The translations under genes and the position numbers were made by a program. The notes under the pieces were generated by a model that worked only from the letters and a program-made list of their open reading frames with translations, was not told where the DNA came from and did no database searches. Positions 497 through 63,989 of a stretch of 64,000 bases of DNA are shown here, one piece after another; the first letter of the stretch is position 1; each line of letters starts with the position of its first letter. This stretch comes from Asterochloris sp. CNOR1 (Eukaryota; Chlorophyta; Trebouxiophyceae; Trebouxiales; Trebouxiaceae): assembly GCA_963969365.1 (NCBI GenBank), contig OZ017756.1:1488001-1552000 (forward strand), read 5' to 3'.

Positions 497-3400
497 GAGT
501 ACTTCCTGCTCGCACTGTCTCAGCCGAGGACGGATCGGGAGATTGATGACCCTCTCAAAGAGAAGCCATCTGGACTGGCAGGCCTACGCACCAAGTCCTT
601 TGCAGCCACCGGCAAGCTGGTGGGTGGCGTGGGCGGACAGGGCGCAGCATGTCAGCGCTGTGCTGTGGTGCCGCTGGCAGGCTGCTGGTTGCCTTCACAG
701 AGTCCAGCAGGCCGCTGCTTTGCTTGTCTGTTCACCAGCATGCTGGTGCGCATGGCAGGCTAGGATGTGCTCTTCTGTCAATGTCTTTGAGCCTGTCATG
801 CCCCTGCCTGTGCTGCCACCGCAAGGGGAAGCACGCCTCACCGAGAGCTGGGCATATTTGCCAGCACTCCGGCCGGTGTGAGTAGAAGATCTTGGCTAGC
901 TGCGGCTTGTGCTGCCTTGTAACGTACAGGACATTGGGCTGTGGGCCTGATGCTGGAGGCAGGCTGAGATGTTGCTGCCTGAGCTGGTAAGCGCCCAGCA
1001 CTGTGTGCGCGCCCAGGGGGCCTTGGCGCGGGCAGGCGCTGTCAGGACCAGACCTCTCCAGTGCCTTGGCCCAGCGCCGCAGATGAAAGGGCGTGCAGGC
1101 CTCCTGGCAGAGATTGCTCACCATGCAGCTGCACTGGTTGGAAGGGCTTACGTACATCCCTTCAATGGCCCCACCATCCAGGCGCTCTAGTCCTTCGGGC
1201 CCTTCCAAGAAGCGTCAGCTTTGTAGGCCACAGCCCAAAACCTGCTTCTTAGGCACACTGCCCTTCATCTGCGGATCCAACGGCCGAACCCCTCCTAGTC
1301 CATGAAGCTTCATTACGCACCCTGGAGGTCCGGTGGCATGTCGTGATGTCACAGTGTGCCGTCACCTTGCACCACATCTGCCCGCAGATCCAGGGCCTGA
1401 AATCCTTCAAGTCCATGAAGCGCGGACCTGCCTCAGCAGCAGGAGCCCCCGTGCCTCTGGCGTCCCAGGACAGCCTGGCTTCCCACGACTCCCTGACGGA
1501 CACAGATGACGAAGAGGAAGAGGAGATGCGGCAGAGGGAGGCAGCAGAGCGGCGGGAGAAGCGGAAGCAAAACACGGCTGGCAGCCAGCCCACCGCCAGT
1601 CATACTGGGGAGGAAGAGGGGCTGATTGTGGTGCCCTCGGCAGCCAGCATCTCAAATGCCGAGGTGGGCTGGGGCCCCTGCTGGTTGCCTTCTGTGCGGA
1701 ATGTGTAAGGGAGGGGGGAGGGATTGGCAACAGGCCCCTTGCCTGCTCCTAGTTGCAGTGTGAGGGGTGGCTGTATACTTGCCATGCTGGAGAGGAGGGA
1801 GGGCCTTGTGGTGCCCTCAGGCGTCAGCATCCCAGATGCTGAGGTGGGGCTGGAGCCACCTGCTGGTGGCTTCTGGGGCACTGGGGAGGCAAGCAAGACT
1901 AAACTGAGTCCTTGCCTGTGGAGCCTGGCATTTAGGCTGCTGGGCCACCGCCCTCCTCTCCATCATGACACATTAGTCGTGGCTCGTTCAGCTAGCGACT
2001 CAAACACTGAGGTGACTTGCATGCTTTGCCTTGGTGCTGGGATGCAAGGCAATGTATCCTGGATTGTGAGGTGCCTGATTAGCTTAGTGCAGACCTCACT
2101 GCCCCTGTGTAGCCTTGGCATGCCCTGAATGCAGCCACTGCCAGGGGCAACTCCTCTGTTTGGGTGGATGCTCCTTGTCAGGCACGCAGAGGGTTTTGGT
2201 CTCCGTGGGGTCTGATTGCGAGCTTGCCCGCCAGCATTCCAGACGCTGGGTTGCAACCTGGTGCTGCTGGTCATGGCCACGGAGCTGCACAGCTGCCTGG
2301 GGAGGCATCCCCTGCACCATTACATCGTAGGGTGGTACCATGCTCCTGGACTTTCACTTCTGCGCCACTTGCTGCCTGCCAAGCGCTGTTCCATCTGCCC
2401 TTCAACCTGCCTGTCCGTCCTGCAGTGTGTGGGCGCCATCCCTTTTGGCAGTCGCTTGAGTCGACAAGCGTCCATGCAGCAGGCACCGTCTCTGATTCAG
2501 GTGCCATCCAGAGGGGCGATGGTGAAGGGGCACAGCATTAGCAATGCTGCGGTGAGGCGCACTGGTGCTGTGCCTGGCAGCTTCTCTCAGATAGCTGCCT
2601 GCTTTGTGGTCCCTGTGCTCACAAGTAAGGTTCAGTAGCAGAGAGGCCACGGCAAAACGGCACAGCTTCAGCTAGCGAGTGAGCAGCATGCTGTGCAGCA
2701 CTCTGGGTAAGTCATCCAAGCCTCTCAGACAGCAGTCCTGCTGACTGGCCAGTCCTTGGTGGCAGCGTAAAGTGCCGCTGACGACAGACAGTAAGCTTGC
2801 AGCACATTCTTACTGGCCTGGCGCGGCGCGGCAGCGCTGTCTCCTCTGCATGCAAGCAGCTACGTGTTGCTTTCCAGCTGAGGCACGTAGCAGCAGCAGC
2901 AATGGCAGCATCATGCAGCACGCCAGCAGTGGCTCCAGACACCCTTCAGACTCTACAGACAGCCTCTAAGATAGCTCGTCGGCTGCTGTGCTTGCCATGG
3001 TGGTGCTGTCAGGCAGGCATGAACACGTCACCTGGTGTCCTGCAGGCCACTGGAGCAGCCGCGTATGGTGGCGGCCCCATCCCTGCCAGTCTGACCCTGC
3101 GGGGCTCTGGCAAGCGCAAGCTGCAAAACATCAGCAGCGACCTGCAGGTGGATCCTCTGAAGCTGCAGCGAACCAGCCCTCCTACATGTTTGGGACCCCT
3201 GCATAGGCACAGACTTGGCTGCTGCAAAGGTTTTGGCACCTGCAGCATACAGCTGTCACCTCGACTGTGTCCCCCGCGCACGCAGCCAGGGGTCCAATGG
3301 CTGCCCTGTCCGTTCTCAGGCTGCGGTGCTGTGCACATGCTGCGGGTCGCAGAGACCAGGATTGACTGGCTATCTCTGCTGCGCTGCAGGGGAAGCGGCA

Positions 3401-6400
3401 GAGTACCAAGCTGCTGTCAGGGCTGCGCAGCAGCACTGCAGGGCAGACGGTGCAGGTGCGATGGCTGGTTTGACCTACGCACTTTAGGCAAGCCGTGAGC
3501 CTGCCTGGCCGTAGTGGGTGTGCATTCTGCAAGTCTGCGTTGCAGCGCCTGCCAATGCATGTCAGACCTGCTCAAAGCAGGCGGTCAGCTGCCGCCGGTG
3601 CTGCCATGCCTGTCAGCCTCTAAGGCAGGCATCAGCCACTGGGGCGGTGCACTGCATGGCTAGGTTATGTCCCCTGTTTCACCTGACCATTGTTCCTGAT
3701 ATCGCAGGCCATCTTCACCGACAGCAGCTAGGGCTGGGAAGGCATGCGCTGCACACCCAGTGTGGCTGTGCCAGCCTGATACAAGCCCCTGACCCTTGCT
3801 GTGCCTTCACCTGCAGGCCATCTTCAGTCGCCGCCCCCTGGGTGGCGACAACAGCGAGGATGAGGAGGAGATGGTGGTGGCCAGCTTTGTCAGCCGCGCC
3901 AACTCGGGTTACACCAACCGCAGCGATGACCGCAAGAGCATGGCCTCCCTGGCAAGCATGATGTCGGGACGGGTGAGGCTCCAGCGCTCTGCTGTTGACT
4001 GGGCTGCACGCGAGCATCCCCTCTGGCCAGCCAAGGAATGGGTGCAGGGGGCTACAAAGGTTGAGCAAGAGCCTCATGTCTGGACGTCTGGGGGCATGCT
4101 GCTCTGCACTGCTGTTCATTCCCCAGCTGCAAGCACGCATGCTCTCTGGGCACATGAGGATCGGCGTGTGGGGGGCTTCACTGCTTTTGTCATGCAAGAG
4201 CAAGGTCTTCCTGGCCAGGATGCCCTTGGACCGGGTGGAGGGCGGCATGTAGCTTTCAGGCTGATGCTGGGCTGCTTGTGGCGCGCCAGTGGCATTGGAG
4301 CGTCCTGCGCTCCCAGAGTCCCCTGCAGACATGCTGATACCAGGCGGCAAGCCAACAAGGTGTCTGCAGGAGAAGCACCCTGGGGCCTTGGGGCAGCCTG
4401 GGCTACTGATTCAGTAGAACCCTCTCATCCCTAGCTGAGGCTGGGCCCTGTGGCTGCAGGAGAAGCGGCGGGGGCCTCTGGGCAGCCTGGGGGGCGGGCG
4501 CCTCAGTGCGACAGGGGAGGGACGTGCCCACATGGTGGAGGTGCTGCCGCCCAAGCCTGTCAGCGGGCAGGTGGACTATGAGTTCCTGGCAAAGCTGCAT
4601 AAGGTGAGTCAGGGGGTATTCCTGGGGCACTGGCTTGCTGTCATCTGAGCTCAAGCTACTCTGCAAGAAGAGAGGTGGACCACAATTTCTGGCAAAGCTG
4701 CACACGCTGAGCTAGCAGGGGATGACTGAGATTCTTTTGTCCTGTCAGACATGTTCGAACTGAACCCTGAGCTTCAGTATATTACACTTTCAGCAGGCAG
4801 CTGCCAGCAATGCACATGCTGAGCTAGCAGGGGATGACTGGGGCCTTCCATTTGTCAGGCGGGTTTGATCTGAGGCCTGAGCTTTGGGAACATAAGCTTT
4901 CAGCAGGCAGTGGACTATCAGTCATAATAAAGCTGTGCAGGGTGAGTCAGAGAGGTCTTGCTGGGGCCCTTTTTTGCTGTCAGGCAAGTCTGAGCTGCTG
5001 GCCCCAAGCGCAGTCTCCGCATCATCCACTGGGCAATGCTGCACAAGAGCACTTGAAGCCCTGCTGGTGCGTCTTGCTTGGGGTCACTGAGTTGCTAGCC
5101 GCTGGACTGTCCAGGCTCCAGCATTATTGCCAGGGCTGGGTGTTAGAAAGCAGTGGGGGGCCATGGGGACTGGTGCCCCTCAAGCGTTGACACAGATGCG
5201 GGCTCTCGCATGGTGTTGCAACTCCTGCAGGTGGGCAAGGACACCCCTCTGAACCTTGCGTTGTGCCCCTGGCCCCCTTTCCTTCCCGCCAGCTGCAGGT
5301 AGACAAGCTGTGCCTCACACTCAGGCAATGGTCTGTCGCCTGCAGGTGGAGAAACACATACGGAAAAGGAAGTTGAAGATGACCTTCATAGAGCAGGTAG
5401 GGAGGTCGCAGGACGCCGCGGCAGACGAGGTGGCCTCCAAGAATGAGGCCAAGAAGCTGGCCTTCTACCTGTTCTGGAACATGAAGCCCGTCTTCAGCAG
5501 GTGGGCAAGCAGAGCTGGCCGCTCTTGGTGTCAGGCAGGGTGCCTTGGGTGGGCTGTTGGCTTTTGCTTTATGGGGGGCAAGAAAGGAGGGGTGAGCTGG
5601 CGAGCGTCCCATCTCAGCAGGTGATACAATGGTAGCCTTGCGATGATAAGTGGCCAAGAAGCTGGCACTACACCTCTTCTGGAATGCCGCCTGTCTGTGG
5701 CAGCTGGGCGGCTGAGGCTGCTGGTGAGGCAGGCGCGCAGAACAAGGGAGCGCATGCAGCAGGCCCTGGCCGACCAGTCCAGCAGGTGGTGCTGCTCGTG
5801 AGACACATGCAGCCCACCTTGAGTAATGGGGACACCGGCTGCCTTTACTATGGGGCTCAAGTGGAGCAGCCTGATGTGCTCATGCGTTGGGGCCCTGGGC
5901 TTCTCCTGAGAGTGAGGCTGAGGTGCAGACTGTGGCAAGCCTATCCTGTGCAGGCTCAGTCACTCAGATGACCTGTGTGCAGGAATCATTGCCCGCTAAA
6001 TGACCTGGGAGTGCCTGCCTGGCCTCAATGCAGTTGTGAAGAGTTCAGCGTGCTCAATCCATTCAAAGTGACCTGGAGTGCTCTTTCAGCTTCACACCTT
6101 GTGCAAATTGCCTGTATGCAGAAATCACATTCTGCTGAGTGACCTGGAGTACTTTCTGGACCCCAAGTCGGCTAAGGAGTGCTTTGACATCCTGGATCTG
6201 GATCGGGACAATAAGATCAGCCTGCAGGTAGGCTGGGCTTGGGGGCACCCATGCTGCCTGCAGGAGTGCAGCAGGGAGGCTTGGCTGCCTATGGAGTTGC
6301 CTACATATGCTGGTGCGCCAGCATGATGGCAATTCACCATGGTTCCTCAGCCAGTGCAGTGCTGCACATCTTCGCAGCTTGTCATGGCTCCTGCCGCACA

Positions 6401-13952: not shown

Positions 13953-14008
13953 CAATTAAAATCCCCCTTTTTTCAAGGGCTGACAAAAATCGAACTTCTT
14001 GAAGAAAT

Positions 14009-16971
14009 TCAGTTGATGGCAGGGTCCTTGGGAGTGTTGAACTGCCACCACCTCCTCTGGTACTTGGCATCTGGCTTGAGCTGGCCCCTCCAGCTGCCAG
14101 AGAAGTGGTGCATGACAAACTGAGGGGTGTCCAGCGTGATGTCATGCCGCACAGGGAGCTCATCACTCTGGCCCTTGGGGCCATATCCAAATGCCTGCAG
14201 CATGCAGTGCACAGTTCCTGGGTCACCGAGGAAGCACTCATCTTGTGCAGGCAGCCAAGCTGCAGGCGCAGCTGCTGGGTGATCTGACACCAAGGGCCAA
14301 CCGTGAACTGGCTGCACCTTCATAGCGCACACCAGTGTCCTGCTTGAAGCAGCAGCAAGTGATGTACACCTCTCCTGGCAAGACAGGAACGCTTGTACCT
14401 GCTGGCCCATGATGGCCACATCCCCGACCATGGAGGGTGCCTCCGTGGCGACCTGCAGGGGGTCCTGGCCCTGGTCCTGAATCCAGGCAATGAGGGCCTG
14501 GGTGTAGATCCAGGGCCCCGCTGAGAGCATGACCTCAGTCTCTGTGCGGCTTGCATTCTGGGTCACATACCGTTGCTGCAACAGGTACTGGGCAATGATG
14601 TGGTCCACCTGCACACTGCCAGAGACACAAGTCAGACAAGGATAGAAAGAACACCGTTTGTTTGCAAAAACCCCCTCCTTGAGCAAGCTGCCCTCTAGCC
14701 GAGCAGATGCAGAATATCCTTGCGCTGGCACAGCAGGGCGTCACACAGCTCATGCCAGCAGGCTGCAGCGCCCCTCTCTGCTGGTGCAACCCAGGGTCCT
14801 AGCTGATCACAGACCTTTTTGGCCAACAAAGCCCAACACTGCGGACCTTATGCAGGCTGTCTCTTACTTACCACGGAGGCCAGCAGGGGGTGGGCTGGTC
14901 GGCTGCCAATGGCCCATTGACAAAATTGAACGGGGTTCCAATGCCGGAAGTGGGGCGGCGCCTGTATGGACTCCACCCCAATGAAGATGCGGGCAGGCAA
15001 CTTACTGTGGGTGGCTTTCTGCAAGGCAGGCAGATCCTCGCTTAGTGGACTGCATGCTGCTGATGGATTTGTGGGGCATGCTTGGGGTGGAATGCACCTG
15101 ATGGATTTGTGGGGCATGCTTGGGGTGGAATGCACCTGCCAAGCAGAGCTTGGCAGAACAGGGCCAGGCCTGCTCAGGCATGCAGAGAGGTGTTTGCGGA
15201 CTGGTTGCTCTGCAAGTGTTGATGGGCCATCTGCTGGGGCTGCCTCTCTGCAGAAGCAGGGCAGGGCCTGTCCAGTGCGCGGAGGCAGGTGGTTGCTGGA
15301 GGTCAGCACGGCAATACCACCCCATGGTGGTTCCCTGCTGAGGCAAGCAGGATGCCAGGCAGCACAAAACTGCTGGCTATGAATGGTTGCAAAGGCATGC
15401 AGGCATGCTGAGGGGAGATGCTACCTGACGTCAGGTGGGGTAGCACCATATCACCAGCACTCCCCAGCAGCACATGTTGCAGTTGCTGCTCACAGCTCAG
15501 CTCAACAGCCAGTCAGTCCTCACTTGCCACTGATCAAAGGGGGTGATGCACTGCACGTCCCAGTCGAGGTACACGCCTCCCAGCCAGTAAAGAATCAGGT
15601 AGCGCCACATGTCAGCCTTCTCCACCATCGTGAAGCTGGCCATCATGGGGAGCAGCCTGGGAGCCAGCTCAGAAACATCAGCCATCATGCCCGCATCGTC
15701 AACCACCCTGCAGCAGGCAGGGACGCTCCCACCTCATGACATCACCTGCACATGCCTCTCTCCACTGCCCTGGAACAGGAACTGGGCCAGAGGCACGTGA
15801 ACCTCATGTGCACTGCAGAGCTGCTGTGACAGCCTGGGGGCCATCTCTGCCATTGTTGCGCATCATCAACGATACTGCAGCAGGCAGGGTTGATTGTTGA
15901 CTGTGCTGCAGAGCTGCTGGTCAGGCAGGCAAGCTGCAGCAGGAGGCAGCCTGAGGCCCACACTGCCCTGCACTGTACTGAGGGCTGCTGGGGCAGCTTC
16001 ACTGGCCTGCGGCAGGCGAAAAAGTACGAGGCTCATGAGCTAGCTGCGGCAGCCTGCAATCTGGCTCAGCTGTGTTCACCAACATCATTGCATCGTTGAC
16101 TAAACTGCAGTAGAGGGGCGCCTGGGGTACACGAGCCTGGCCCTGCAGTGTTGCCACTTTGTTTGGCAGCCTCCTGCATGGAGGGGCCTACAGGTACAAC
16201 ATCCTGCACTGGAATGCAACGCAGACAAAATCCGATTCGTGGGGGAGTTACCCATCAGTCCTGGCTCCTGCAGTCCCCCGAGGTGTCAGAGGTGCTTGCT
16301 GCCGTACCAATCAGCTGTGGTGCTGTCAACCCCTTGTGCAGGAAGTTGGGGTGGCTGCCTCTTGCTGCTTTGCAATGCGCTTGGCAGCCATGTGGCCCCC
16401 ACCGTGCCTTCCACCCTCGATTCATGCTGAGGCACTCCTCCAGGTAGGTGGGCAGGGTGCTGTTGTCTTGCACCGTCATGTGGATGGTCTTGGGCCAGTC
16501 TCTGATGCGCCGTGAGTACTGCATCAGGGCAATGGTCCTCAGCAAGCCAGCACTGCATGGCATGCAGCGCCTTTCTGAGGACCTCGTGCAGACAAGCAAG
16601 AAGCTCATCTCCCCAACAGCACCCTTACTTCTGCAGACTGTCAGGTACTTGCTGCAGCTTGGATCAAGCCTGCAGGACATCCATGGTCATGCATGCTTGG
16701 GAAAGCCTCTGCCCAGCCTGCACACCTGCAGTGGCCCCGCCCTCAGGTCGTCCTTCCAGGTCAGAAGGCCTTCAGCCAGCTGCAGAGGGCTGGCTGTCCA
16801 GTTGGGGTGCTGTGCCAGCTCCAGTCGCCGCCTGCTGATGGATCTGGGGCTGCGCACTGCTGGGCGCATGATGAAGTCAAGACCTGGCAAGCACTGACAG
16901 CCGCCCAGCATGAGCCAGCCAAACAGGAGGCCTGCCCACATGGCTCCCCCTGCACAGTCAGCAGAACTCAT
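14009..16971 (-). CDS. GT32 / OCH1-like type II Golgi glycosyltransferase
   Basis: Five exons join in phase into 430 residues: 16971-16726, 16518-16403, 15707-15524, 15018-14872, 14608-14009. A signal anchor lies at residues about 10-27 (AMWAGLLFGWLMLGG). An OCH1-type IHMTVQDNSTLPTYLEECL block follows, then the glycosyltransferase-sugar DXD domain (ADMWRYLILYWLGGVYLDWD). Next come a FIGVES block and a C-terminal HHFSGSW block, all typical of PF04488-type retaining transferases that use nucleotide sugars in the Golgi lumen. Donor and acceptor sugars cannot be told from sequence. The last exon is long (200 codons), and a small unrecognised intron around 14300-14450 is possible. The 695-bp intron before the DXD exon contains two echoes of that exon's start. 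Confidence 0.85.
15061..15136. repeat. Perfect 38-bp tandem repeat, two units
   Basis: Units 15061-15098 and 15099-15136 are identical, so this is a recent duplication. It lies inside the GT32 intron between the exons at 15524 and 15018. Confidence 0.95.
15685..16125 (-). repeat. Three copies of the DXD-exon 5' edge
   Basis: On the + strand the true exon edge 15685-15720 (GCATCGTCAACCACC then CTGCAG) is echoed at 15852-15892 and 16084-16115. Each copy has a GCATC-like block, TCAAC or TTGAC, and a CTGCAG acceptor. Confidence 0.8.
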
Positions 16972-19148: not shown

Positions 19149-22100
19149 ATGAGTCAAGGTGTGAAAACGCCAGCTTAGCTGCTGCCTGAATGCCCTCAAG
19201 TGCCTGTCTTCAGGAGGCATCTGGTTGCTTTGCTGCCCGATTGGGGCCTCACCTTGTATCTGTTTTCCTGTCCCAGGCAAGCGCAAGGCTGAGGACCTCG
19301 AGGGGGCTCCTGACTGTGTGTGTGGCGCAGGCCCATGCGCCAAACACTTCTCCATCAAGCCAAGAAGCAAGGGAAGGCCATTCTGGCGCTGCCCTGCCCA
19401 GGTTTGGCCCTGCCAAGATGCTGCCTTCAACCTGCATTGGCCTACTTGGCCCACACTTAAGCCTGGCAGCACCACCTGCAACACTGTACAGCTGATGTAC
19501 ATCACAGACACCGCTGCTGCTGCGCGTTCCTGTCACGCCTTGCCAGCTGCACCTGGGCTGTCTCATCCTGGCATCTGCAGCCTGCAACTTCTGCAAAGAA
19601 CCCTGACTTGGGTTTTGGAGCTGCAGCAGGGGCCTACCTTGCTGCAGGCATGCACAGAGCAGCACCCTCACATTGAAGTCTGTTGTCCCTCAAGCGCCAA
19701 CTGTGGGCAGCACCCTATGAGCAATGCCGATCTGCGCCAGTCACTGATGTAGCACCATGGTGCCATACAACCAATCTCAGACCACCCTCAGCCCTCAGGA
19801 AGGCAGTCACAGAAATGTGGTGCCACTCTGTATGCCTGCAGGGTGAGAAGCTGTGCGCTCACTTTGCCTTGGCAAATATCCCTTTCTGGGGCACTGCTGA
19901 GCTTATAACCCAGGTTTGTGCCATGCAGGGTGCAAAGCAGTGCTCTTACTTTGCCTGGGCAGACCAGCTGCCCAATAAGGCGCCTACTTCTGGGCAGCAG
20001 CGTTCAGCTCCCGGCACTGGCATATGTGGCACGCCTCGGGCCTCCGCTGCAACGGGGCAGTCTGGGGACGGCTCCCAGCCAGGGCCTACCCAGTCGGCAG
20101 CTGGGGCTGCTGGCAGCTGGGAGCACTCAGAGGGTGAGGCTAAAGCCTCCAGGTTGTGTGCACTGCATGTGCGCGAGAGCGCCATACCCCTACAGGGTTG
20201 GCCGAGCGAGGCAACATCCATCCGTGGTGAGGCTTTGCACGCTTGGCCCTCTGATTGCGCTGCTTGGCTTTGTCCACTGTCCTGAGGGGTGAGTGCATCC
20301 AACCAGCTGCCAGCAGCGCCAGCTGGGGTTGCTGGCAGCTGGGGGACTGCTTCACCCCCCTCAGGACAATGGAAATAGCCAAGCAGCGCACTCAGGGGGT
20401 GAGGCTGTAGACTCCAGGCTGTGTGCACTGCATGTGCGCACGGGAGAGTGCCACACCCCTCCTGGGGATCGGTTGAGCCAGGCAGCATCCTTCCATGGTG
20501 AGGCTTTGCACACTTGGCTTGGCTCACTGCACTGCATGTGGGCGTGGGAGTTGCCACAGCCCTCCAGTGTCCTCCCAAGGTATGGGCATGCATCCCCTGC
20601 TCGGCCGCGTCTGTGCTGGCAGCGGGACAGCACCACTGCCTCCAGGGTAGCACGCCACGCCAGGCAGCATGACCCCAGGGTGAGGCTGTGAACTCCAGGC
20701 TGGTGCATTGCAGGACATCCCAAGGTGCACTGGCGACACCATGTTGTGCACACCTCATTCCCTGCAGCGGCAGTAGCTAGAATTGGGTGGTTCGCCCGCA
20801 GAAACATGAGGGGCAAGACAGAGTGTATGCTTCTTTGCCTGCAGCTGCCCCTGCAGCTGCTCACCTGGCGCCACCGTAAGCATGTTCTCCTTAGGAGCCT
20901 CGAGAGACAGTGCTTCAGGCTGCAGGACAAGACATGGTCCATGAGACACGCTCCACCGCACGCTCGCCACACTTGCAGTTTGGATGGAGCAAGCCCTGCT
21001 TGTGACTGCAGGACAAGCTGGCAGTCAGAAGCAGGCCCTGCCCCCTCCAAGCTGCCAGTGTGGTGAGCCTGCAACGGAGCGCGTCTCATGGACCACCAAC
21101 AACCCAGAGCGCAAGTTCTACAAGTGCAGCCAGGCCAAGGTCAGTCTGGCGTCTTGTGTCTCGGCATGTTCTGCAGCAGAAGCACAATGTGTATTGATCA
21201 TATTTGAACGCCTGCACAGCAGGGCAGCCGGGGCCTGGTTTTAAGAGCTGCTGCAGACGCGGAGTCATGAGGGTGTCAATGTCAAGATGGCACCACAATA
21301 TTTCTCGGGCGGCAAGTGCAAGCAGATTGCCTGACAGAGACTAGTTGAGCAGGGCTCTGGGCAGAAATGTCCTCTTTGCTGGGCTTGAGAGGAACACTGT
21401 TGCCTGGCAGGGCTCAACCCTGGCTGCATGCTGCTGCAGGGGTATACTCATGTCCTGAGTGCTTGTGGACACGCCAGGACTGCCAGGAAGAGTATGCGTG
21501 CACCTGCCTGCACAGCAGGGTGCCAAGCTGGCTGCATGATGCCTGCAGGGGCCAGCAGGCAACTCTCATTCTGCCTGCAAGCACATGTGCTATCAGTGAT
21601 TGGGCCATACCTGCAGGGGCCCGCCTGCAACTGCTTTGGCGATGTCTCCATGCGCTTGCGCTCAAGGTGGCTGCACGTTGCCTGCAGGGAGAGGGCTGCA
21701 ACTACTTTGCCTGGGCCGATGAGCTGGGCAAGGCAGCTGCCTCTGGAGGTGGCCCCTTAAGCTCGCCGTTGGGCTCTCCAGCAGCATCCCAGCAGGGCAG
21801 CGCAGGCAGCTCAGGTAGGCCTCTATCTTGATGACGAAGGACAGAATTGCTGGCATAGTGTGCCATATGCTGGCGGAGGTTCAAGGCTCCCCAAACTCTG
21901 AGATGACAGTTCTGCAGCTGAGGGCTGTGCCTCATGCAGTACAGCTGCCTTGCAATGCCCTAACTTGTTACATCTGCGTGCAGGGCTCACTGTGCTGTGT
22001 GATTGTGGAATTCAGTGCCGGAGGCTGCAGAGCCACTCAGCTGCCAACCCTGACCGGTGGTTTTACAAGTGAGCCAGAAGGCTCATTGTCTTTCAAGTCA

Positions 22101-48800: not shown

Positions 48801-49103
48801 AGTGTGTTGGTGCTGGCCACAGAGCTGCTGTCAGGCGCCTCGTTGGCGCAGCGCGGTTTGATGAACAGTCAGGAAGCTGCGCAGGATGCCCTGGCTGCGC
48901 TGAGCGCTGTGCATGCCGCTGGCGTGCTGCATGGCGACATTCGCCCTGAGAATGTGATGCTGCTTTCCGATGACGCCCGCCCCTCTGTACGACTGATAGA
49001 TTTTGGGTTTGCACAAGATGCTCAGGCTGACAGGATGGGTAGGGAAAGCAAGCAGTTCAAGCAACTGTTGAACAAGCACACCAAGCCTGCATCAGTCAAG
49101 TGA
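45848..49103 (+). CDS. Crinkler-like protein: SAM-like, nuclease-fold and kinase domains
   Basis: Eight exons join in phase into 688 residues: 45848-46055, 46322-46592, 46686-47104, 47227-47320, 47555-47745, 47828-48068, 48273-48516, 48705-49103. A SAM-like helical region (FLEEDLQLLWDKRCRDQEDL, RDGLRHMGLEEILIAHL) is at residues about 10-65. A restriction-endonuclease-like region of the type found in Crinkler (CRN) proteins follows: AWELKRP at about 272, VDLRGIASGVVDNIVEVICQ, then RYGVITTGRTWYFCK at about 334. After an acidic linker comes a short kinase-like domain: VVYKLAL (Lys), LLNEIRAY (Glu), HGDIRPENV, and IDFGFAQ, ending soon after. Such fusions are described as eukaryotic effectors or intragenomic conflict proteins; function here is unknown. 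The 47320 donor is GC (AG|GCAAGT). The 48069 donor is weak; if unused, the nuclease part would stop at 48081. Confidence 0.7.
47436..47520 (+). repeat. Short tandem duplication in Crinkler-like intron
   Basis: GCAGCCTGCAGCACAC occurs at about 47440-47455 and again at about 47490-47506, with similar flanks. It lies upstream of the acceptor at 47554. Confidence 0.75.
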
Positions 49104-49386: not shown

Positions 49387-49490
49387 GGTGTCACATGGCC
49401 TGATATATCATGACCTGTTACAGGGTGTCACATGGCCTGTGATAATGTGACCTGTTACAGGGTGTCACATGGCCTGTGCTAACGGGACCT
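49387..49490 (+). repeat. 37-bp tandem repeat, 2.8 units, upstream of SMU2
   Basis: Units start at 49387, 49424 and 49461. Each begins GGTGTCACATGGCCTG, and the first two end in GACCTGTTACAG. They contain TGTCACA/TGTGACC inverted pairs, and the array ends about 85 bases before the RED/IK start codon. Confidence 0.9.
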
Positions 49491-52500: not shown

Positions 52501-55500
52501 TTAAGCAAGGGACTTGCTGCTGCAATGGGGGCGGCCTGGACAGCAATGCAACTGCTCCAAGACTGGCACTGGACAGCCACTGCTGGCTGACGGCCAAGGA
52601 CCCCTCCTGCCGCAAAGCCCTCAAGCTGACAGTCATGCCTCTACCTGCTGCTGCAGTGAATGGCAGCCTGGATGGGGGCGCAGCTGCTGCAAGGGCGAAA
52701 GTGGATGACAATGAGGGTGATATCTTTGGAGATGCCGGCACAGACTATGTTTGTGAGCTGCCCCAGGTACAGCTACATAGCTTGCGTCTGCAGTGCACAG
52801 TCACCATTGCATGCGACACCTGCAGGCATCTGTCCGCCTTGGCTGCTGCACATGCAAGCAGCCGCCTGCAGCACTCATTCTCTCTAGTGCATGCTGTTTG
52901 CCCTGAATGCCTGCTCCATGCCATGTCTGTGCCACCCTCCCAACATGCTGCTTATGCTGCAGTCTTTCCCTGCCTGCAGAGGCGCGGCGGCGACAGCGCT
53001 GCCCCATCCATCAAGCCTGAGAGCTCCTATTTTGGTGACAAGGCAGATGGGATGGAGGACTTACCGCCCCTGCCCAAGGACACAGGTGCTGCTGCTCAGC
53101 CTTGGGACCCTAGCAGCCCTCAAGTGACCAACACTTGCCCTGCATGCCAAAAGAGGAAGGCTCTGAGCAGGGGCTGACTGCTTCCATAAGACAGAAGCTG
53201 CTTGTCCAAGCACATGGGCGCGCCTGGCCAGCCTCAGCAGACTAGCGACCCAAGGGCACATTGCCTTTCTACATCAAGCAATGCACTGCGAACTTCATCA
53301 AACAGCCCATGCTGTGAACGACTGCTGCTCGTGCTGGCGTCAATGGCTCTCAGCCTTGAGGCGACCATTGCGACTTTTGCTCACCTCAGCCTTGCCAGGT
53401 GTCCCTTGTGCCCTTGCTACAGAGGAGAGACTGTGATGCAGAGGAGGCCTGCTGGCGTATTGCAGGGACTGGCCTGACTATAGTCATGACCTAGAGGTTG
53501 CATCAAAGTCCCAACACTGCTGCATCATGCCGTTGCTGCAGGTGATGATGTAGCCCTCCAGGCGAGAGCCCTGAGAGCCCTGTCCTCACCCCTAAAACCC
53601 CTCTGCAGTCTCCTGCTCAACTCTTACTCAATTTGCCTGTGCCACTTTTGCAGGGGATGACATGGACGTGGAGGAGGAGGGGCAACTGCCCCCACCCCCA
53701 CCAGACTCCGACGCAGTGGGCCCGGCGCGTCCGCCTGCAGACTACGATGCGGCAGCTGCCTATGCAGCCTACCCTGAGCCTACTGAGCAGCAGTGGTGCG
53801 CTGTGTGGGCCGTGCGCAGCACTGCGGATGCAGCTAGTCATGGCCAGTGTGGCGTACCAGGCGCACTCCTTCTCCACCTCTGCCCTCTCATGTTCAGGCA
53901 GCAGCACCCACAAGGATCTGCTCGTGTGCAGGCAGGACCCCAGCAGCATGCAGGCGGCTGTGGATGCCAACGTGGCCTACCAGGCGCGCAATGACCCAGA
54001 GTACCAGCAGCTTGTAGCCCAGCAGCAGGAGATGAGGGGGCCAGGGGCCCTTGGCGCCATGCAGGTGGGGCAGGCGGCTTTGTGCAGGCCCCTGTGTCTG
54101 CATGTAGTGCCTGTGTCCGAGTAGCAGGAGGTGAGGCGTGGCAGGGGCCCTGACGCCATGCATTCATGCTGCACGCCACATGCTGCATGTTGGTGGGGCA
54201 GTCTATGTTTGCCAAGCCCTGTCTGCACGGTGCGATGGTGATCAAGAGAGATGCAAAGGGCAGAGGCCCTGCTACAAAGCAAGTGGGCCTGCTGTTGCTG
54301 GGCGCATTACATCTGCAAGGCCTGCTTGGCTCTGCCCTGCACAGCACGTGGAGAGACCAGCAGGAACTGGGCTTCCGTCTTTCAGTAGTTCGGCAGGGGG
54401 ATGTTTGCCGAGCCCTGTACTGTGGCTGCTTGCAGTTGAGCATGTCCAAGGAGCAGAAGGAGGCGGGACTGGCATCAGTTTTCAAACGGGACGACTCCCA
54501 GCAGAAGGGGAGAAAGGAAGTAGACGCGAGAGAGAAAGACCCTGCCTTTGTGTCAGATGCCTACTCGGAGTGCTATCCTGACTACCACGCCTTTGGCACC
54601 ACTGTAATGGATGACGAGGATGCAGACTTCACACACATGGACAACAAGGTCAGTGGTGGAGAGTGAGTCATCATGCTCGCGTCTTGGGCACTGAGTGGCT
54701 CTTTGGGCAGACGCAGCTCATTGTGTGACCTTGACCCATGCCACCTATTGGAAAGTACAGCCGCTGTAACATGACCTGCACCTAATGTGGGTGGCAGTGC
54801 TGCTGCAAGATGACGACGTCGCAGGTCTCACCCACATGGACAGCAAGGTCAGTGATCAGGTGTGCATGGGGCCCAAAAGCATTGAGCAGCTGCGTTTCCA
54901 CAGACACAGCTCACACTGCCGATCTGCCCGGCTGTCGTCTGAGGCTGCCTCTGAAAGCTCAACATAGCTTCAGCATTCACTGAGGAGGAGTGGAGTGGCA
55001 GGCTGATAGGTTGACATGCCAGTTTGCCAGCAGGGTTGCTGTGTAGGGTGCAAGAGCCAGTCTGACAGGTTGCCATGCCCTGCTGCAGGAAGCTGGCAAG
55101 TCAGCAGCCGGGCTGCCACTCAAGCTGCAGGGCACCAGGCAAGCTCACATCCCGGACATATCTGCAGGAGGCTTGGATGGTGTGATCTGCCTGGCAGGCC
55201 TTGACTTGGCTGACAGGCTTCCACCTCACTGTGCAGGAGGCTGGAAAATCGCGCTACGACTTCAACACAGAGGAGGAGTGGGAGTTGTACAAGAATGCGA
55301 AGGAGGCTGCCCCCAAAGCTGCCTTCCAGTTTGGGCTGAAAAACAAGGATGGGAGGAAGGCGCACAAGGACCTGGGCAAGCAGAATAATGCCAAGATCAA
55401 CACCCAGCTGGGAAAGATCAAGGGCATCTTGGAAGAGAAGGTGGGCACTGCTATTGATGTTGCCAACATTGACAAGAAAGGGTGCCAGCTACTGGCTGAT

Positions 55501-57037: not shown

Positions 57038-59913
57038 ATGATTGCTGGCAGTGCCAAGTAAGCAGACCTTGCACAGCATCTGCACCAATGGGGTATTGTC
57101 TCTCAGGGCTTCTGTTGGCTGTGCTAGTCACTCTTCCACTGCCCCCTGCAGCATTGGAACTGGCTTTCCGTTTGACACGGTGCGACTTGACAGCACCAGA
57201 AATGCTGATACCAAGCTGTTGTCATTGATGTCTATGGCCATGCCTGTCTAACCAAAGCATTTGCCCACCACATTGCCAGACAACGCGCTTGACAAGAAGA
57301 GAACCCAACTGCAGGTCAAAGTCAGGCTGCAGGCCTCGCCAAGGGGCACATACAGCGGCGCCTGGCACTGTTTCAGATCCATCCTTAAGTTTGAGGGGGT
57401 GAGAGAGACTTAGATACCATCTCAGTCAGCTTCACCAGGCCAGGGTGCCAGCTGTTGTTGTACCTATCTCCACTACCCCTGCCAAAGGCAGTTGGCTGCA
57501 GTGGGCCGCACGCAATGGTGCTCAGGTTGCCAGCAGCCCACTGACTGTGCCTCTTGAGGCCGGGCTGACTGTCATCACAAAATGCCGATAGCGTGTCTGC
57601 TGCAGGTTAGAGGGCTCTACCGGGGCCTGACCCCGCCCCTCATAGGAGGTGCCTTGGAGACTGGCATCAACTACGCAGTGAGTTGCTCTGGCAAGCCACC
57701 ACATGCTGGGCCGTCCTGTACTGCCCAGCAGTGCTCCCACGCTGTGGCGCACTTTGGTCTCTCCAAAGGGCTTCACAGACTTTGGCCTGTCTCAACAGCT
57801 TGCAAGGCTTGCAAAGTGTCCATCGCACCTTTGCACAGGTGGTCATTCTGCTGCAGGTGTACACTAGCATGTTGGCTGCGCTCACGGTGGGTCTGCTGGG
57901 CTCCCAAGCAGTGTGCAGACTTTTGCTATGGTCAAGCTCATTGAGCCCCAGTCGGCTGCTTCCTGCAGCCAAGCAATGAGATCCCCGCCCTCTTACCTAC
58001 CATTCCCATCGCAGCCGGCGCGGCAGGCATCGTGCTCAGCGTCGCGCTGAGTCCCTTTGAGCTGGTCAAGGTGAGCAGTCAAGCCTCCCCATGGCCTGAC
58101 GCTCCTGCCGGCGGCACCTGCATGTCACAGGTGTACCTGCAGCAGAGGCCCTGCACCTGCAGCTGGTGCATGTACGCGGCAGGCCGATTCCACAGCTGGG
58201 GCTTTGATGCCGCCCCCTCCCGCAGCAGGGGAACCTACAGCCTGCTCAGGGGTGCCGCCGCCAGGTCTGACGTGCGGTCTGCCCTGCACAGCAGCGTGCA
58301 GCTGGGTGTCTGCACGCTCCCCTCTGCAGCAGGGGCACACCTCCAGCAGCTGGTGTGTTCATACCCACTCCTGCAGCAGGGGGCCCCTGCTGCCTGCTGT
58401 GAGCATGCTACCCTGCATCACCCCATGCAGAAGCACAGCACCCCCCTGCCTGCTCTGCAGTGCCGCATGCAGCTGGGGCGCTTTGGCGTCCTGCACAGCC
58501 ACAGCAACAGCTGGCAGTGCATCCGCCACCTGTTGCGGACAGAGGGTGCCTGGGGGCTGACCCGGGGGATGGGGGCCACCATGGCCCGCGAGTGCCCAGG
58601 CAAGCGCTGCAGAGCCAGCTGCAGCAAACCTCCTGTCAGGCAGGCTGAGCGTGCCCCACAGCGGCCAGGCCCTGCAATCAAGGTTTTGGTGGCCTGTGGG
58701 AAAGCAAGCGCTGCCTCTTGCTGTCAATGTGCACTCTGCAGTGGCAGGTGATGCCAGCAGGGGTATTAAGAACAATGCTGTGCACAGCAGTGTCTGCCTG
58801 CCTCATGCAGTCGCTGCGGTGCATCTCTTAAGCCTGCTGGAGCTTGTCACTCCTGAGATCTCAGGCAGTGGTGGCGCCTTGGAGGCAGTGAGCCCTGCAC
58901 TGCTGTGCCCTGGCAGTCACTTCCGCCTGATAACAGGTCAGCCTGCTGTGTCCCAACCCTCTCAAGCTTATGGACCTGCTGAGCCCTCCACCTCCAGCCC
59001 TGCAGGGAATGCCGTCTTTTTCACAACCTATGAAGGACTGCGGAGGACCTTTCCAGGGCGCAGGCAGCCCGAGCGGCAGGACTCCACCCTGCTGAGCGTG
59101 CTGGCAGACTCAGCCTCAGCCATCACCTGCGGCGGCATTGCTGGGACCGTCATGTGGGCAGTTGGTGTGTTCGCTGCTTAAGAGACAGCTTTGCTGCCCT
59201 GCTGCCTCCTGCTGCAGAAGTGTGCCTTCACGCAATAAATCACATGCGGCAGCATCGCAGCCACCTTTGGGTGGCAGCTGACATGCCATTGCCCCAGGCA
59301 CTCGCTGCAATGCTGTCTGGCAGTGCAGCGGTGTCACGAGTGCTGCTGCTGCCTGCAGCTGCTGCACCCTGCCTGCCAAATGCTCAGCCAGCTCCCAAGC
59401 CAGCAGCAAGCATCGCCGCCACATGCTTCCCCTGCTCTGTCTGCAGTCCTGCCCATTGACGTGGCTAAGACGAGGATACAGACCGCCTTCCCAGGGAGCG
59501 CCAACAATGTTGGCATCCTTCAGAACATGCGATTGATGTGGCAGACAGGTGACACAGCATGCTGACTCTCAGCGACTGCGAGGTACGGGCAGCCTGCTTT
59601 GAACAGAGAGCTGCATGTCCTGTGAGAGAAGTGATATCCTGCAATACTGACGAAGGTGGACGTTTCTGCCTGGAAGGCACAGGCCTCTGTGTGCTGTGCT
59701 CACCGGTCAAGACGAGCATTCTGCTTTGCAAGCCGTTTCGTCAAAGAATGTCACATGACCACACAGCACTATATGTTGCCAATTTCTTGCTGTGCAGGAC
59801 GCTGGTCATCCCTGTATGCTGGCCTGACACCCACCCTGATCCGCGCCTTTCCCGCAAATGCAGCACAGTGGCTTGGCTGGGAGCTCTGCCTTCGTCAGCT
59901 GGCCAAGAATTGA
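57038..59913 (+). CDS. Mitochondrial carrier family protein (basic amino-acid/ornithine-carrier-like)
   Basis: Ten exons join in phase into 283 residues: 57038-57057, 57152-57179, 57315-57398, 57606-57677, 57857-57886, 57969-58070, 58461-58599, 59006-59164, 59447-59548, 59798-59913. All three repeats of the SLC25 fold are present, with signature PFDT|VKVRLQ, PFELVK|CRMQ and PIDVAKTRIQ, and GLYRG, GLTRG and LYAGL after helices. Helix ends IGGALETGINYA, REC PG|NAVFFTTYEGLRR and RAFPANAAQWLGWE resemble the ornithine/arginine carrier group; the substrate is inferred only. It acts in the inner mitochondrial membrane. The 20-nt first exon (MIAGSA|N) rests on phase plus the family pattern. The donor at 58600 is GC (CAG|GCAAGC). 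Confidence 0.9.
59115..59285 (+). repeat. Echo of carrier exon 8 3' edge
   Basis: Exon end 59120-59165 (ATCACCTGCGGCGGCATTGC..ATGTGGGCAGTTGG) is echoed at 59238-59280 (ATCACATGCGGCAGCATCGC..TGGGTGGCAGCTG). Confidence 0.85.
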
Positions 59914-60020: not shown

Positions 60021-60025
60021 TGTAA
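60021..60025 (+). terminator. TGTAA polyadenylation signal of the carrier gene
   Basis: TGTAA 108 bases past the stop at 59913. Confidence 0.55.
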
Positions 60026-60272
60026 AGTTTGCCAATTGACAGTGCTGGCTGATGGCCCTCGACCCTCAGCTCGTTCAACATGATGCCGGGCACTGCATCA
60101 CGCCTTCAAAGAAATCGCTGAAAGCAGATATATCTGGCGTATACGCCAATAGGCACTACTACTCACTCAGTCTGTCACTCAGAAGTCTCTGGAAAGCAAG
60201 ACGCGGAGATGGGGTGGAGCTCCTGGCAGCTCAATGCAACTGCCTGTGGACAAGAATGTGGGAAGCTGACTC

Positions 60273-63200
60273 TTACTGCCATCTGACGATGGCGCTGCCC
60301 CAGGTCAGTCCAGCTCCAAAGCCAGCCAGTGCTAGCTGCAAGGCATGCAGACCAGCTCAGGGCAGAGCGTACGCTTAGCGTAGGCAGCGCAATTGCAAAG
60401 ACACCTCAAGGTGCCGCAGCAGTGCGCAAGTCTGGGAAATCCCTAAGCTCAAAGAGCGTGCAGGTCATCGACGTAAAGCCTGGAAACAGAATGTTACAAA
60501 ATGTGTGCAGAAGTCCCAAAGCACAAAGGGCCGTATGCTCACCACATCGCCAGACTTGATGGTGCCATCCCGCACCCTCTCGTCCAGCACAAGGGGTATT
60601 GAAGCTGCAGAGGTGTTGCCGTAATCCGCCAGGTTGGACACAACCTGGAAAGCATGTGTCATGCTTTTGATACCCAGCTCAACAGTTTTATTGGTGTGGG
60701 AGTTTGGGACAGGCAAATCATCTATAGAGCTTTGCTTGCTACTACTCACTGTGGCTTCTGTATGCCACAGAAGCCATTAGCAAGTGCCCTGGCAGCTGGC
60801 AACTTTGCTGCAGCAAACTCAGGCAGCCCACAGGACAGCTTCTCATGCCTGTATGCCTTTCTGCTTGCGGCATACCCCACCGCTAGCTGTGGCAGGGTCA
60901 TGTGATGTCAGTCATTTACAGCCTACCTTGGAAGGATCAATATCCAATTTCTTGGCTGCTGCATCCAGAATCCGCTGATTGGCCTGGTGCAGGACCAGCC
61001 AGTCCAGCTGATCCTTGTTCATGCCAGCATCCTTCAGCGATGACTTGAGGGTCTGCAGGGAGGCAGAATGACGGTGTCAGCACCAGAGATGGATCCCCGT
61101 TCGTCGACATGGCGCCATTCTCTGGCAACCAGCTTGAGGGTCTTCACAGAACGACCACAATGTAGAACTCCAGCCATCATATGCGCAGAACCAGCCAAGC
61201 CGGCTGGCATGTGTTTATATTGATGCTGATGTACGATGACTGGAAGGTTTGCTTGGTCACCCGCGACGTCAAGTCTGCTTTGTGTCTGCATCCCTGCCAT
61301 GCAGCCCCTGCATGCCTGCTATAGAGCTGCAGCCTGCTCCATATGCAGGCACTCCCTCATGTGCAGTCACTATCTGGCGTAGATAGAGTCAACGCCCTGC
61401 CGCTCATTGCAGCAGATGTCAGCATACCGCTGGCTGGGTGAGCACAAGGCATGTGAGCAGCCTGAAGCTGAAGCAGCTTGCCTCGGGGACCTTGCTGACG
61501 GCAAAGCGGAAGACGTCCTGGCCGTTCATTGCGATGTTGTGAAAGGCTCCCATGCTGGAGGCATGCGACTGGCTGAGCGCCTTGGCGTCATCAGCGCCCG
61601 AAAAGTAACACTGCAGGCAGCAGTGTGGGCTCCAGTCAGGAAGTCTGCTTGTTCAGTCTGGCATGCTTGTGCTGTCAGGCATGCGACCCCAGCTGGAGCG
61701 GTCAGCATAGTATGCCTGTGCTGTCTGGCATGTGACCCCAAGCTGGAGCATCAATTGCCCAGGCTTCATCCACAGGAGAAGACTAGCACTGCAAGCACTA
61801 GCATGGGGCCAGTCAGCAAGCGTACATCTTCAGTCTGGCAGAGGCCCAAGAGGCGAGCACCCCTGCCTAATTCAGGAACAGCCCAGACATGTCCTGCGCC
61901 TGGTCAGTAGAGCTGCAGGCAGCAGGCTGCTCTCCAGCCAGCAAGGCCTACACGTGCTGTCGGGCAGCAGCTGGGTTCAGCAAATCAGTCGGAATTAGCA
62001 AAAGGCTGAGACTATAAGATGTGCAGCGTGCAAGATGCCCAATGGCATCGCATGCTCGCACTGTGGGAGATCCTATTTGCAGGATTGTGGGCTCAGCAGG
62101 TCGTCATCTCCCTATGGATGGTGCCTGCTAAGCAAGCCCATGCACTACAAGGGGGTGAGGAAGTTGTCATTGCCCAAGCAGCAGCATCCTGCATCAACTG
62201 TGCAAAGATGCTTGCAGCAGCTAAGCAGCACATGAAGAGTAGCTTGGCTGTCGCTCCTCATGTGCAGAGCGCATGCACTGCACACTATACAGGCATTTGC
62301 AGAAGTTCTGTGTACATGGCCCAAGGCAAATTCGTCACCCCCGGCTGATGCAAAGCAGCCTGCACGACCCCTCAAGGGACACACAGGGCCTGCAACAGCC
62401 CACATCTCACATTTAGGTGCTTCTGCCCGTCACCATTGCTGTGCATGTCAGCCCCCAACAGGCTGCAAGCCTCGTCCTGTTGCGTCATCAGCACGGCGCC
62501 TGAGCCGTCACCAAATAGAATGCAAGTGGCTGCAGACACAGGAAGACGTCAACATTGCTGCCCACAAGTTGTCACCAAGCTGCTTTTGACGGGCCCAGTC
62601 AGTGTCAGTTGGTAATGGTAATGGCTTTGCAGCACAAAGGAGGCAGTGGCGGCTACTACTGCACAGGTGGTCAGGCTGCTATGCTGGCCAGAACTGTCAC
62701 AGCAGGCTCCAGCCTGCAAAGCTTCGGTGGGGGCCAACAGAGCTGCAACACAGCCTGGGGCCATTGTGTTCCACGTACAGCTCTGCTGCTCTGCTCACCT
62801 GCTACAACTCAGCCTGCTCAGCAACAGGTACAAGCCAAATGCATGAGACAGATGCCTGTCTGCTGCATGCCCAGGATGCAATGAGGGCTCACATCTGTCA
62901 CGCCAGTCCACATATCTGGACAGGGCATCAGCACCTATGACCAGGATGTTGCGGCACATGCCCGTCCTGATGAACTGCGCAGCAGTCACCACACCAAGCA
63001 CAAAGCCACTGCAGGCGGCCGTCAGATCCATTGCAGTGGCGTTATGGGCGCCAATGATCTGTTGTACCTGCAGCAATTCTGTTGATGTTCCCCAATGTAG
63101 GTGACCAGCCTTGCAGAGCAGCAGTGCAGGCACAAGGCCAGGCACAGCCCAAGCCTGACGCCAGCAGGAGGCAGCCTCTCAAGGTCCCTCTTCAGACAAA

Positions 63201-63989
63201 AGGGCTTGTGCTCTGAAGCACAAGACTTGTATGGCAGGCTGCCAAGACAGGGAGCAGTGCAAAACAGCTGGGTGTCCCTCACAGGCCACCAGGAGCCACC
63301 TGGGTCGCTCTTACTGCATCTGTGCCCCCGGCAGACCTGACAATCACCTGGCAGGCGCTCCCAAACAAGTCATCAGGGCTGGATGTGGCCAGTAAAATCA
63401 TGTCCACGTCCTCAGGTGCCACGCCAGCCATCTCCAGAGCTAGCTGTGCTGACTTAGCAGCATGGTCGCTCAAGTTCTCATTGCGCCCCAGGATGTGCCG
63501 CTGCCGGATGCCCGTCCTCTGCAGGTAGCAGCCAGGGATGCTGAATGGCTGGCCCCTCCCGTTTGTCAGCCAGCGCCATGCTCCCCCGTAGGCCTGCTTG
63601 CATGCTGTTTGCATGCACAAAAGGTCAGCAGGGTGCATGCACCTCACCTGTCTGATCCAATCATCATCAGTGTCCACAAGCTTCTCGAGATCAGCATTGG
63701 TGAGCACTGCTGATGGCGCGGAACTGCCGCAGCCCGCCAGCTTGCAGCCTGCAAGGCCCCTGCCTGGCCGTGCAGACGCAGTCTCGTTGGGGACTGCTGC
63801 AGAGGCTCTCAACAGGCACAGCCGGCGACAATGAGGCCTGTGCAAGCCTTCAAGATTGGGTTGCCAATGCCTATGCTGCCTGATTGTCTTGCTTCTGCAC
63901 AGCCTATGATTTTGGCTGTGAATGCTGCGATGCAACAGGCTACTGTGTGAATGGCAAGCGGAGCATTGATCAGGAATGGTGCTGGTCAT
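60273..63989 (-). CDS. KAS3: 3-ketoacyl-ACP synthase III, plastid fatty-acid initiation
   Basis: Eight exons join in phase into 408 residues: 63989-63648, 63518-63348, 63067-62893, 62529-62411, 61610-61482, 61052-60927, 60644-60543, 60335-60273. It condenses acetyl-CoA with malonyl-ACP in the plastid stroma. The catalytic triad is visible: Cys in TAACSGF (about residue 190), His in LHQANQR (about 334) and Asn in DYGNTSAAS (about 364). Other hallmarks are [20 protein letters not shown] and the C-terminal [16 protein letters not shown]. The first about 75 residues, rich in Ser, His and Arg, serve as a transit peptide. The ATG at 63989 keeps the frame, but an upstream exon beyond the window cannot be excluded. 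The donor at 61481 is GC (GAG|GCAAGC). Confidence 0.94.
61655..61755. repeat. Two-copy about 58-bp tandem repeat in KAS III intron
   Basis: Copies about 61660-61707 and 61716-61752 share CTGTGCTGTC, GGCATGYGACCCC and AGCTGGAGC blocks. They lie upstream, in gene sense, of the exon at 61610. Confidence 0.8.

Follow-up and report, generated by a model that had tools for sequence, protein, structure and literature searches.

Short, worn copies of exon edges, many of them carrying a splice site, lie within adjacent introns in the sampled part of the genome of the green alga Asterochloris sp. CNOR1. We studied a stretch of 64,000 nucleotides (hereafter the window; C11:1488001-1552000, contig OZ017756.1 of assembly GCA_963969365.1), in which a preliminary description made from the sequence had pointed to degenerate copies of exon boundaries in introns, and we confirm that these exon-edge echoes are real and not limited to the window. 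The echoes are specific to the adjacent intron, lie in direct orientation, peak at the splice junction and keep no reading frame, and some of them are plainly arranged head to tail. The reading that we prefer, to which we give a probability of about 0.7, is that direct short-range duplications across exon-intron borders, mainly head-to-tail, left these echoes, which have since become worn.

Exon edges are echoed in their own introns

The assembly contains 56,383,464 bases in 21 contigs. To the window we added 200 kb, taking one pair of neighbouring 10-kb stretches per contig from C1 to C10. The analysis covers 264 kb, roughly half of one percent of the assembly, in 11 regions (the window, W, and ten others) on 11 of the 21 contigs. 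Genes were modelled with an ab initio gene finder, written for this work and trained on the 264 kb itself, which yielded 655 introns with a median length of 217 bp. The splice consensus of the models, CAG/GTGAGC at the donor and CTGCAG/G at the acceptor, resembles the green-algal one, and predicted proteins match known families where checked, for instance ClpP (E 3e-50) with ankyrin repeats and zf-4CXXC_R1 (E 1.8e-25).

For the main adjacency counts, and for the decoy and frame counts given below, 362 of the 655 introns were kept (80-900 bp, flanking exons with a score of at least 12) and probed with up to 60 exon bases and 15 intron bases. The preliminary description had proposed a comparison of adjacent with non-adjacent exon-intron pairs, and this comparison separates them clearly: at a score of at least 15, 57 of 724 edges matched their own adjacent intron (29/362 donors, 28/362 acceptors), whereas the same edges matched introns of other genes in 2/4332 comparisons (1/2166 donors, 1/2166 acceptors), introns three or more positions off within the same gene in 0/1830 (0/915 for each type of edge) and the reverse complement in 1/724 (0/362 donors, 1/362 acceptors). 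With the threshold lowered to 13 the own intron was matched by 87/724 edges (40 donors, 47 acceptors), compared with 18/4332 for other genes' introns (5 donors, 13 acceptors), 3/1830 for introns at least three off in the same gene (0 donors, 3 acceptors) and 3/724 for the reverse complement (1 donor, 2 acceptors). Shorter probes, applied at a score of at least 15 to 236 introns (80-700 bp, flanking exons at least 15), found echoes for 24/471 edges in their own intron (13/236 and 11/235), and none when exon ends were compared with the upstream intron (0/131), exon starts with the downstream intron (0/131), edges with introns three away (0/156) or mid-exon sequence was used (0/223); the reverse complement gave 1/471.

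The five best cases of the preliminary description were all located at the positions it gave, and when compared with random intron sequence (400 controls each) had P values of 0.0025-0.005, which are conservative, since the control pool included the test introns. They are listed here in window coordinates, where offset is the spacing from exon edge to echo.

54610..54655, + strand: end of an exon of a RED/IK-like gene (54610-54648) with donor GTCAGTG; the donor was set by eye, and the gene finder ended the exon at 54655
54809..54854, + strand: echo of 54610-54655, 199 bp downstream, donor-like GTCAGTG retained, score 27.6 (case 54608/54807)
54010..54063, + strand: exon end, donor at 54065 (segment alignment)
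54109..54162, + strand: echo of 54010-54063, offset 99, score 19.5 (case 54018/54120)
1626..1668, + strand: exon end with donor GTGGGC, junction 1663/1664 (segment alignment)
1806..1848, + strand: echo of 1626-1668, offset 180, called an exon by the gene finder, score 26.9 (case 1630/1808)
21681..21709, + strand: acceptor CTGCAG and exon start of a GRF zinc-finger gene, junction 21687/21688 (chain with Pfam Zn_ribbon_GRF, E 1.5e-14)
21610..21638, + strand: first echo of 21681-21709, offset 71, set score 15.2
21539..21564, + strand: second echo of the same set, 68 bp further upstream (segment alignment)
26135..26170, - strand: exon end with donor GTGG, intron 25514-26138 (segment alignment)
26064..26089, - strand: echo of the 26135-26170 exon end, offset 81 (segment alignment)
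25966..26001, - strand: further echo of the same exon end, offset 169, score 24.5

In the 21681 set the gene has repeated GRF zinc fingers, and copies of the domain could add to the likeness.

Echoes had been described as present throughout the window in 1-4 extra copies at a spacing of about 50-300 bp, and these figures need adjustment. They are found in all 11 regions, but at a score of at least 15 in only about one intron in seven (51/362; 11/110 in the window; regional range from 1/33 in C10 to 10/32 in C9), and longer introns hold more of them (15/56 at 500-900 bp compared with 5/62 at 80-150 bp). Two extra copies do occur, at 21539/21610/21681 and 25966/26064/26135, but one extra copy is usual, four were never seen, and the word ladder is therefore too strong as a general term. 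The 72 echoes with a score of at least 14 have offsets of 33-383 bp with a median of 118, so that the short range and, with the single reverse-complement match, the direct orientation both hold.

Short-range similarity is also seen when counted independently of gene models. In the window, 42 ungapped similar segments reach a score of at least 16 at spacings of 20-400, compared with 2 on 400 far diagonals. Across the regions outside the window, segments with a score of at least 15 number, per million positions, 7.03 at a spacing of 50-100, 5.64 at 100-150, 4.74 at 150-200 and 1.07 at 300-400, with 0.05 on far diagonals. Local duplication in this size range is thus common across the sampled regions. 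Its density seems to vary along the genome, as of the ten regions C8 shows the most short-range similarity and C10 the least. At 19837-20700 of the window, where two predicted genes meet, several repeats overlap; their offsets are about 87, 222 and 265-281 bp.

These counts leave chance, base composition or an artefact of the gene finder with a negligible probability. Introns here are rich in CTGCAG-like words and the exons are ab initio predictions, which would favour such an origin, but the same probes are almost never matched in other introns, the near/far excess does not depend on gene models, and the RED intron, whose limits are set by protein alignment (see below), holds one of the strongest echoes. 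The rarity of edge-probe matches in introns of other genes (2/4332), and the little similarity on far diagonals within the sampled regions, also speak against sharing of the kind seen in introner elements.

Similarity peaks at the splice junction

The position of the similarity was followed with a 38-base sliding probe in 224 introns (120-700 bp, flanking exons at least 15). Matches to the own intron at P<=1/301 were obtained for 21/224 exon ends and 20/223 exon starts (41/447 edges), compared with 32/894 in the intron interior (5-11 of about 224 at each of four positions) and 12/739 deeper in the exon (0-8 of 160-210 at each of four positions). All 325 short-range segments with a score of at least 15 were also placed on the gene models and compared with 200 random rotations. 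Junction-intron pairs numbered 86 against 44.0 expected (1.95x) and junction-junction pairs 23 against 6.0 (3.83x), neither being reached in 200 rotations, whereas intron-intron pairs numbered 96 against 128.0 (0.75x), lower than in any rotation, and exon-intron pairs 57 against 69.6. The junction peak is real, and duplications in the intron interior also occur; duplications within exons are depleted only mildly, if at all.

Tandem units or copied patches

The preliminary description attributed the echoes to local tandem duplication across splice junctions. Local duplication stands; its tandem character can be followed for part of the echoes. At offset 100 in C9 the unit can be read on into the intron over roughly the full offset (about 58 intron and 42 exon bases), and further whole-unit alignments were obtained in C7 (offset 63), C9 (offset 120) and C1 (offset 180, with a third copy). 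These come from 26 displays, many of which slid to trivial self-overlap. A test of the intron side, at the place where a tandem unit predicts similarity, gave P<=0.05 in 17/66 echoes. In a stricter version, 8 of the 72 echoes with a score of at least 14 were too short and 64 testable, and P<=0.05 was obtained in 15/64 (global) and 17/64 (local) with 3.2 expected; in 10/52 the predicted place outranked 95% or more of the remaining places in that intron, with 2.6 expected. Evenly spaced ladders in the window, with steps of 68 and 71 bp (21539-21709) and of 103, 112 and 110 bp (4583-4910), likewise favour tandem units. The second of these starts from the following pair.

4583..4608, + strand: exon end with donor GTGAG (segment alignment)
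4686..4711, + strand: echo of 4583-4608, offset 103, with more repeats at +112 and +110 (4699-4910) (segment alignment)

A serious rival is patch copying, in which DNA-repair synthesis would transfer to the neighbouring intron a small patch of exon edge and no whole tandem unit; it gains weight because several strong echoes have no intron part of such a unit. Visible similarity covers about 50 exon bases and fades within 5-10 intron bases, a pattern that patch copying would produce, although seeds from mainly exonic probes favour it too. Patch copying is harder to reconcile with the cases that align over the whole unit including its intron part, with similarity at the predicted place at about five times the expectation, and with the even spacing of the ladders, which resembles that of tandem arrays; we regard it as possible, at roughly one chance in a few, but not as the leading explanation. 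Tandem duplication accounts for part of the echoes, and the remainder may be either tandem units that have worn away or patches that were copied.

Several observations weigh against the preferred reading. Three quarters of the testable echoes (47-49/64) have no significant intron-side similarity, and among them is the strongest echo of all, at offset -98 in C1 (score 57.8), where 31 intron-side bases gave P 0.09 in global and 0.95 in local alignment; had a tandem unit arisen there recently, a match would still be expected. Echoes at offsets -95 and -112 in the window also fail the intron-side test. Exon-exon pairs were 16 against 22.1 expected in the rotation test, with 19/200 rotations as low, and this mild shortfall means that loss of within-exon duplications is not demonstrated. 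In the simulations described below, the settings that come nearest yield too few edge echoes (0.045 and 0.069, observed 0.083) and too few interior echoes (0.016, observed 0.029), and the age model is not unique, being a fit and not proof. Finally, the gene models are ab initio: their chains often fuse neighbouring genes, and some echoes are called exons, probably including 54798-54859, 58183-58264 and 21549-21576.

Direct short-range duplication would nevertheless explain the echoes as follows. Short stretches, at offsets mostly of 60-200 bp, would be duplicated in direct orientation at many genic places. A duplication in an intron or across an exon-intron border would be tolerated if splicing keeps the outer, original junction and the copy is discarded with the intron. 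Head-to-tail duplication would be the main route, the intron part of many units having probably worn past recognition. Protein function would constrain the exon copy as the echo drifts, and exon edges would in consequence stay recognisable for longer than intron-intron copies. Most events would be old and, as simulation suggests, duplications with a long exon part would have been selected against. Introns would thereby gain sequence, along with decoy splice sites that have since become worn.

Age of the echoes

We simulated neutral duplication at random places with a conserved exon. Position-blind steady duplication proved insufficient: the edge/interior ratio was 1.21-1.47 in nine settings and 1.18 in a tenth, compared with the observed 2.85 (95% range 1.7-4.9), and was likewise well below the observed value in an earlier simulation with other settings; the deeper-exon/edge ratio was 0.48-0.70 (nine settings) compared with 0.23, and fresh copies with a score of at least 22 made up 43% of edge copies and 45% of interior copies, whereas 4/37 and 2/26 were observed. 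When selection against long exon parts acted by itself, echoes were less common at edges than in interiors (ratio 0.46-0.75), and ended births alone left too many deep-exon echoes (0.51-0.66). Ended births and selection were combined in four settings, two of which come near most measures, while the others gave edge/interior ratios of 1.60 and 6.05. In the two near-fitting settings, out of ten, births ended 0.3 substitutions per site ago, the unit median is 115 and the selection length 40 or 60; the edge/interior ratio is 2.88 and 4.32, the deeper-exon ratios are 0.22-0.30 and 0.10-0.13 (observed 0.23 and 0.04), and 10-11% of edge hits have a score of at least 22 (observed 11%).

These fits suggest that the echoes are mostly old. 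The scarcity of young copies is informative, since steady birth, combined with any loss, should yield an excess of young copies over old ones, and it may reflect a past wave, copies born imperfect, or young copies lost in assembly. Duplication had been described as recurrent, and for an ongoing steady process the fresh copies are too few (4/37 compared with 43%). Fast mutation of repeats occurs in fungi as repeat-induced point mutation (RIP); the changes from exon to echo give no sign of such a process, being mixed, with 201/395 transitions and rates of 0.097 (C>T) and 0.126 (A>G) per base. Two fresh short tandem arrays, younger duplications, lie at 15060-15138 (38 bp x 2.1 at 100%) and 49387-49490 (37 bp x 2.8 at 88%) of the window.

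The simulations bear on a further explanation, compatible with either copying route, namely that duplication starts at, or is selected at, splice junctions, possibly through microhomology between repeated TGCAG or GTGAG words or because a second splice signal aids splicing. The observed edge/interior ratio well above that of position-blind steady simulations (1.18-1.47) points in this direction, as does the excess of junction-intron and junction-junction pairs over rotation expectation with intron-intron pairs below it. Against this, an old wave lifts the ratio without targeting, and in echoes whose match extends to the junction the splice dinucleotides survive at roughly the level that we estimate for drift (GT 12/24, AG 22/31). 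Junction targeting would not be required by the data according to the fit, because an older wave with selection comes near the observed ratios without it, and we consider a junction-directed process rather unlikely. It is equally doubtful, though worth stating, that junctions are preferred for short-range duplication or its retention and that a past episode rebuilt many introns from exon edges; if so, worn decoy sites would be spread genome-wide and a measurable share of intron DNA would be former exon edge.

Decoy splice sites and reading frame

Decoy sites were scored in echoes that reach the junction (24/40 donors, 31/47 acceptors), a choice that favours splice-like decoys. Decoy donors have a median score of 2.3, compared with 6.8 for real donors and -8.7 for random intron positions, and decoy acceptors 4.0, compared with 7.7 and -13.2. 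The proposal that decoy splice sites were left in introns is therefore borne out.

Such sites raise the possibility that the echoes have a function, as alternative exons or as alternative splice sites. Decoys are still splice-like, with 2/24 donors and 9/31 acceptors equal to or above their own real site, and 7/57 echoes (score at least 15) are both open and in frame, though this is the level of chance. The remaining properties argue otherwise: offsets modulo 3 are distributed 19/18/20 (score at least 15) and 27/28/32 (score at least 13), 30/87 echoes have an open path as far as the real junction, close to the 0.347 of random intron pieces, and exon-echo mismatches by codon position are nearly level (0.178/0.164/0.209), leaving little codon signature. 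The listed alignments copy a single exon edge, in place of the whole exon with both splice sites and a compatible frame that a duplicated alternative exon would have. Most echoes are probably not alternative exons, since frame is not kept and the paths are as open as random intron, and we regard a functional role of this kind as very improbable.

Which copy is used

The preliminary description held that the outermost copy remains the functional one. Alignment shows this for the RED/IK-like gene (Pfam RED_C, E 1.3e-24). The gene model that includes the echo exon 54798-54859 matches human Red with 43.5 bits in a significant block that begins after the echo; the block before the echo is weak (8.7 bits), and between the blocks there are 7 residues in the human protein and 32 in the model. 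The model lacking the echo exon gives one unbroken alignment over the join, with 65.7 bits and E 5.3e-17 (PDB Protein Red). Since dropping the echo exon restores the unbroken alignment, this is a clear case, judged from sequence comparison, in which the outer, upstream copy is coding and the echo intronic.

The second gene that could be checked encodes a mitochondrial carrier (Pfam Mito_carr, E 1.3e-48), with the following features.

58450..58477, + strand: mitochondrial-carrier acceptor and exon start (Pfam Mito_carr)
58279..58306, + strand: echo of 58450-58477, offset 171, score 16.5, P 0.0025
59122..59148, + strand: mitochondrial-carrier exon end region, donor at 59165 (segment alignment)
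59239..59265, + strand: weak echo of 59122-59148, offset 117, score 13.2, P 0.005

Its alignment to uncoupling proteins ends at FELVK, directly before the suspected echo exons, and we take the joins to be PFELVK/CRMQ and 59164/59447, as read from the carrier motif. Use of the outer copy is thus indicated in one carrier intron; for the other introns it is a matter of gene models.

Relation to known duplications

In the potato RdRp gene a new intron arose from tandem duplication over an intron-exon boundary (Ma et al. 2016, PMC4974935). As in that gene, the duplications described here span an intron-exon boundary and bring splice signals along, but potato is a single case of a new intron, whereas here the copies lie within existing introns, 51 of 362, and the outer junction is still in use where checkable. 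Intron gain by tandem duplication has been considered in Drosophila together with the AGGT model of Rogers (Lehmann et al. 2010, PMC2891723), in which, as here, intron sequence is supplied by exonic sequence that carries a splice-like site and is duplicated locally; in that model an exonic AG/GY is duplicated to give a new intron, whereas here an existing donor or acceptor is copied. The model predicts that an echo of the upstream exon end would lie at the 3' end of the intron, at an offset that equals the intron length; the offsets of the listed donor echoes are shorter than the intron, the probe having omitted the last 8 bases.

Short, local, repair-mediated duplications or 'doublets' of vertebrates, some with splice sites, were described by Pace et al. 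(2009, PMC2671141, citing Thomas et al.), who studied interrupted transposons, excluded copies within 50 bp as tandem and found 4/824 partial exon/intron donors. These would be the best model if patch copying holds; unlike them, the copies here lie within genes and are far denser at junctions, and where whole units are readable they are not the non-tandem insertions considered there, as echoes lacking intron-side similarity may be. Minisatellites share head-to-tail units, where readable, and at times three evenly spaced copies, but the echoes are mostly two worn copies: Tandem Repeats Finder (minimum score 40) gave 20 rows in the window, none of which is any of the five best cases.

Among the open-licence papers listed in our searches we found no account of genome-wide exon-edge echoes, subscription papers being mostly outside this search, and the passages of PMC7919458 and PMC3488318 that we used hold no figure for this duplication size class. 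Single cases such as that of potato are already known; the density seen here looks new. It touches on how introns lengthen without transposons and on the origin of cryptic splice sites. Should a datable copy of the flanking exon edge be present in roughly one intron in seven, the exon would offer a fixed reference with which local duplications could be dated, counted and delimited, intron by intron. There is also a warning for annotators, as echoes were called as exons here and other gene finders may err alike.

Further echoes and neighbouring genes

Further pairs in the window are the following.

3932..3975, + strand: exon end with donor GTG (segment alignment)
4194..4237, + strand: echo of 3932-3975, offset 262, score 18.7
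5447..5479, + strand: exon end region, donor at 5501 (segment alignment)
5652..5684, + strand: echo of 5447-5479, offset 205, score 21.5
27628..27673, - strand: exon start with acceptor, intron 27672-28084 (segment alignment)
27723..27768, - strand: echo of 27628-27673, offset 95, score 25.3, predicted unit without intron-side similarity
15692..15722, - strand: acceptor TGCTGCAG and exon start (segment alignment)
15859..15889, - strand: echo of 15692-15722, offset 167, score 21.8
61594..61643, - strand: exon start with acceptor of a FabH-like gene (FabH match, E 5.8e-76), intron 61611-62410
61896..61945, - strand: echo of 61594-61643, offset 302, score 13.9 for the part used

Among the other predicted genes of the window, the chain at 45836-49099 (+) carries a terminal protein-kinase-like domain (Pfam Pkinase, E 6.9e-10), and the 16-exon chain at 41735-45443 (-) resembles, by eye, a tyrosine-recombinase protein. 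A light-harvesting protein is encoded at 35421-38258 (+; E 1.7e-40), for which the LHCI chains of 9vfj come first among the best 60 of 236 solved-structure matches, and the next listed matches are mainly fucoxanthin- and other chlorophyll-c-type chains.

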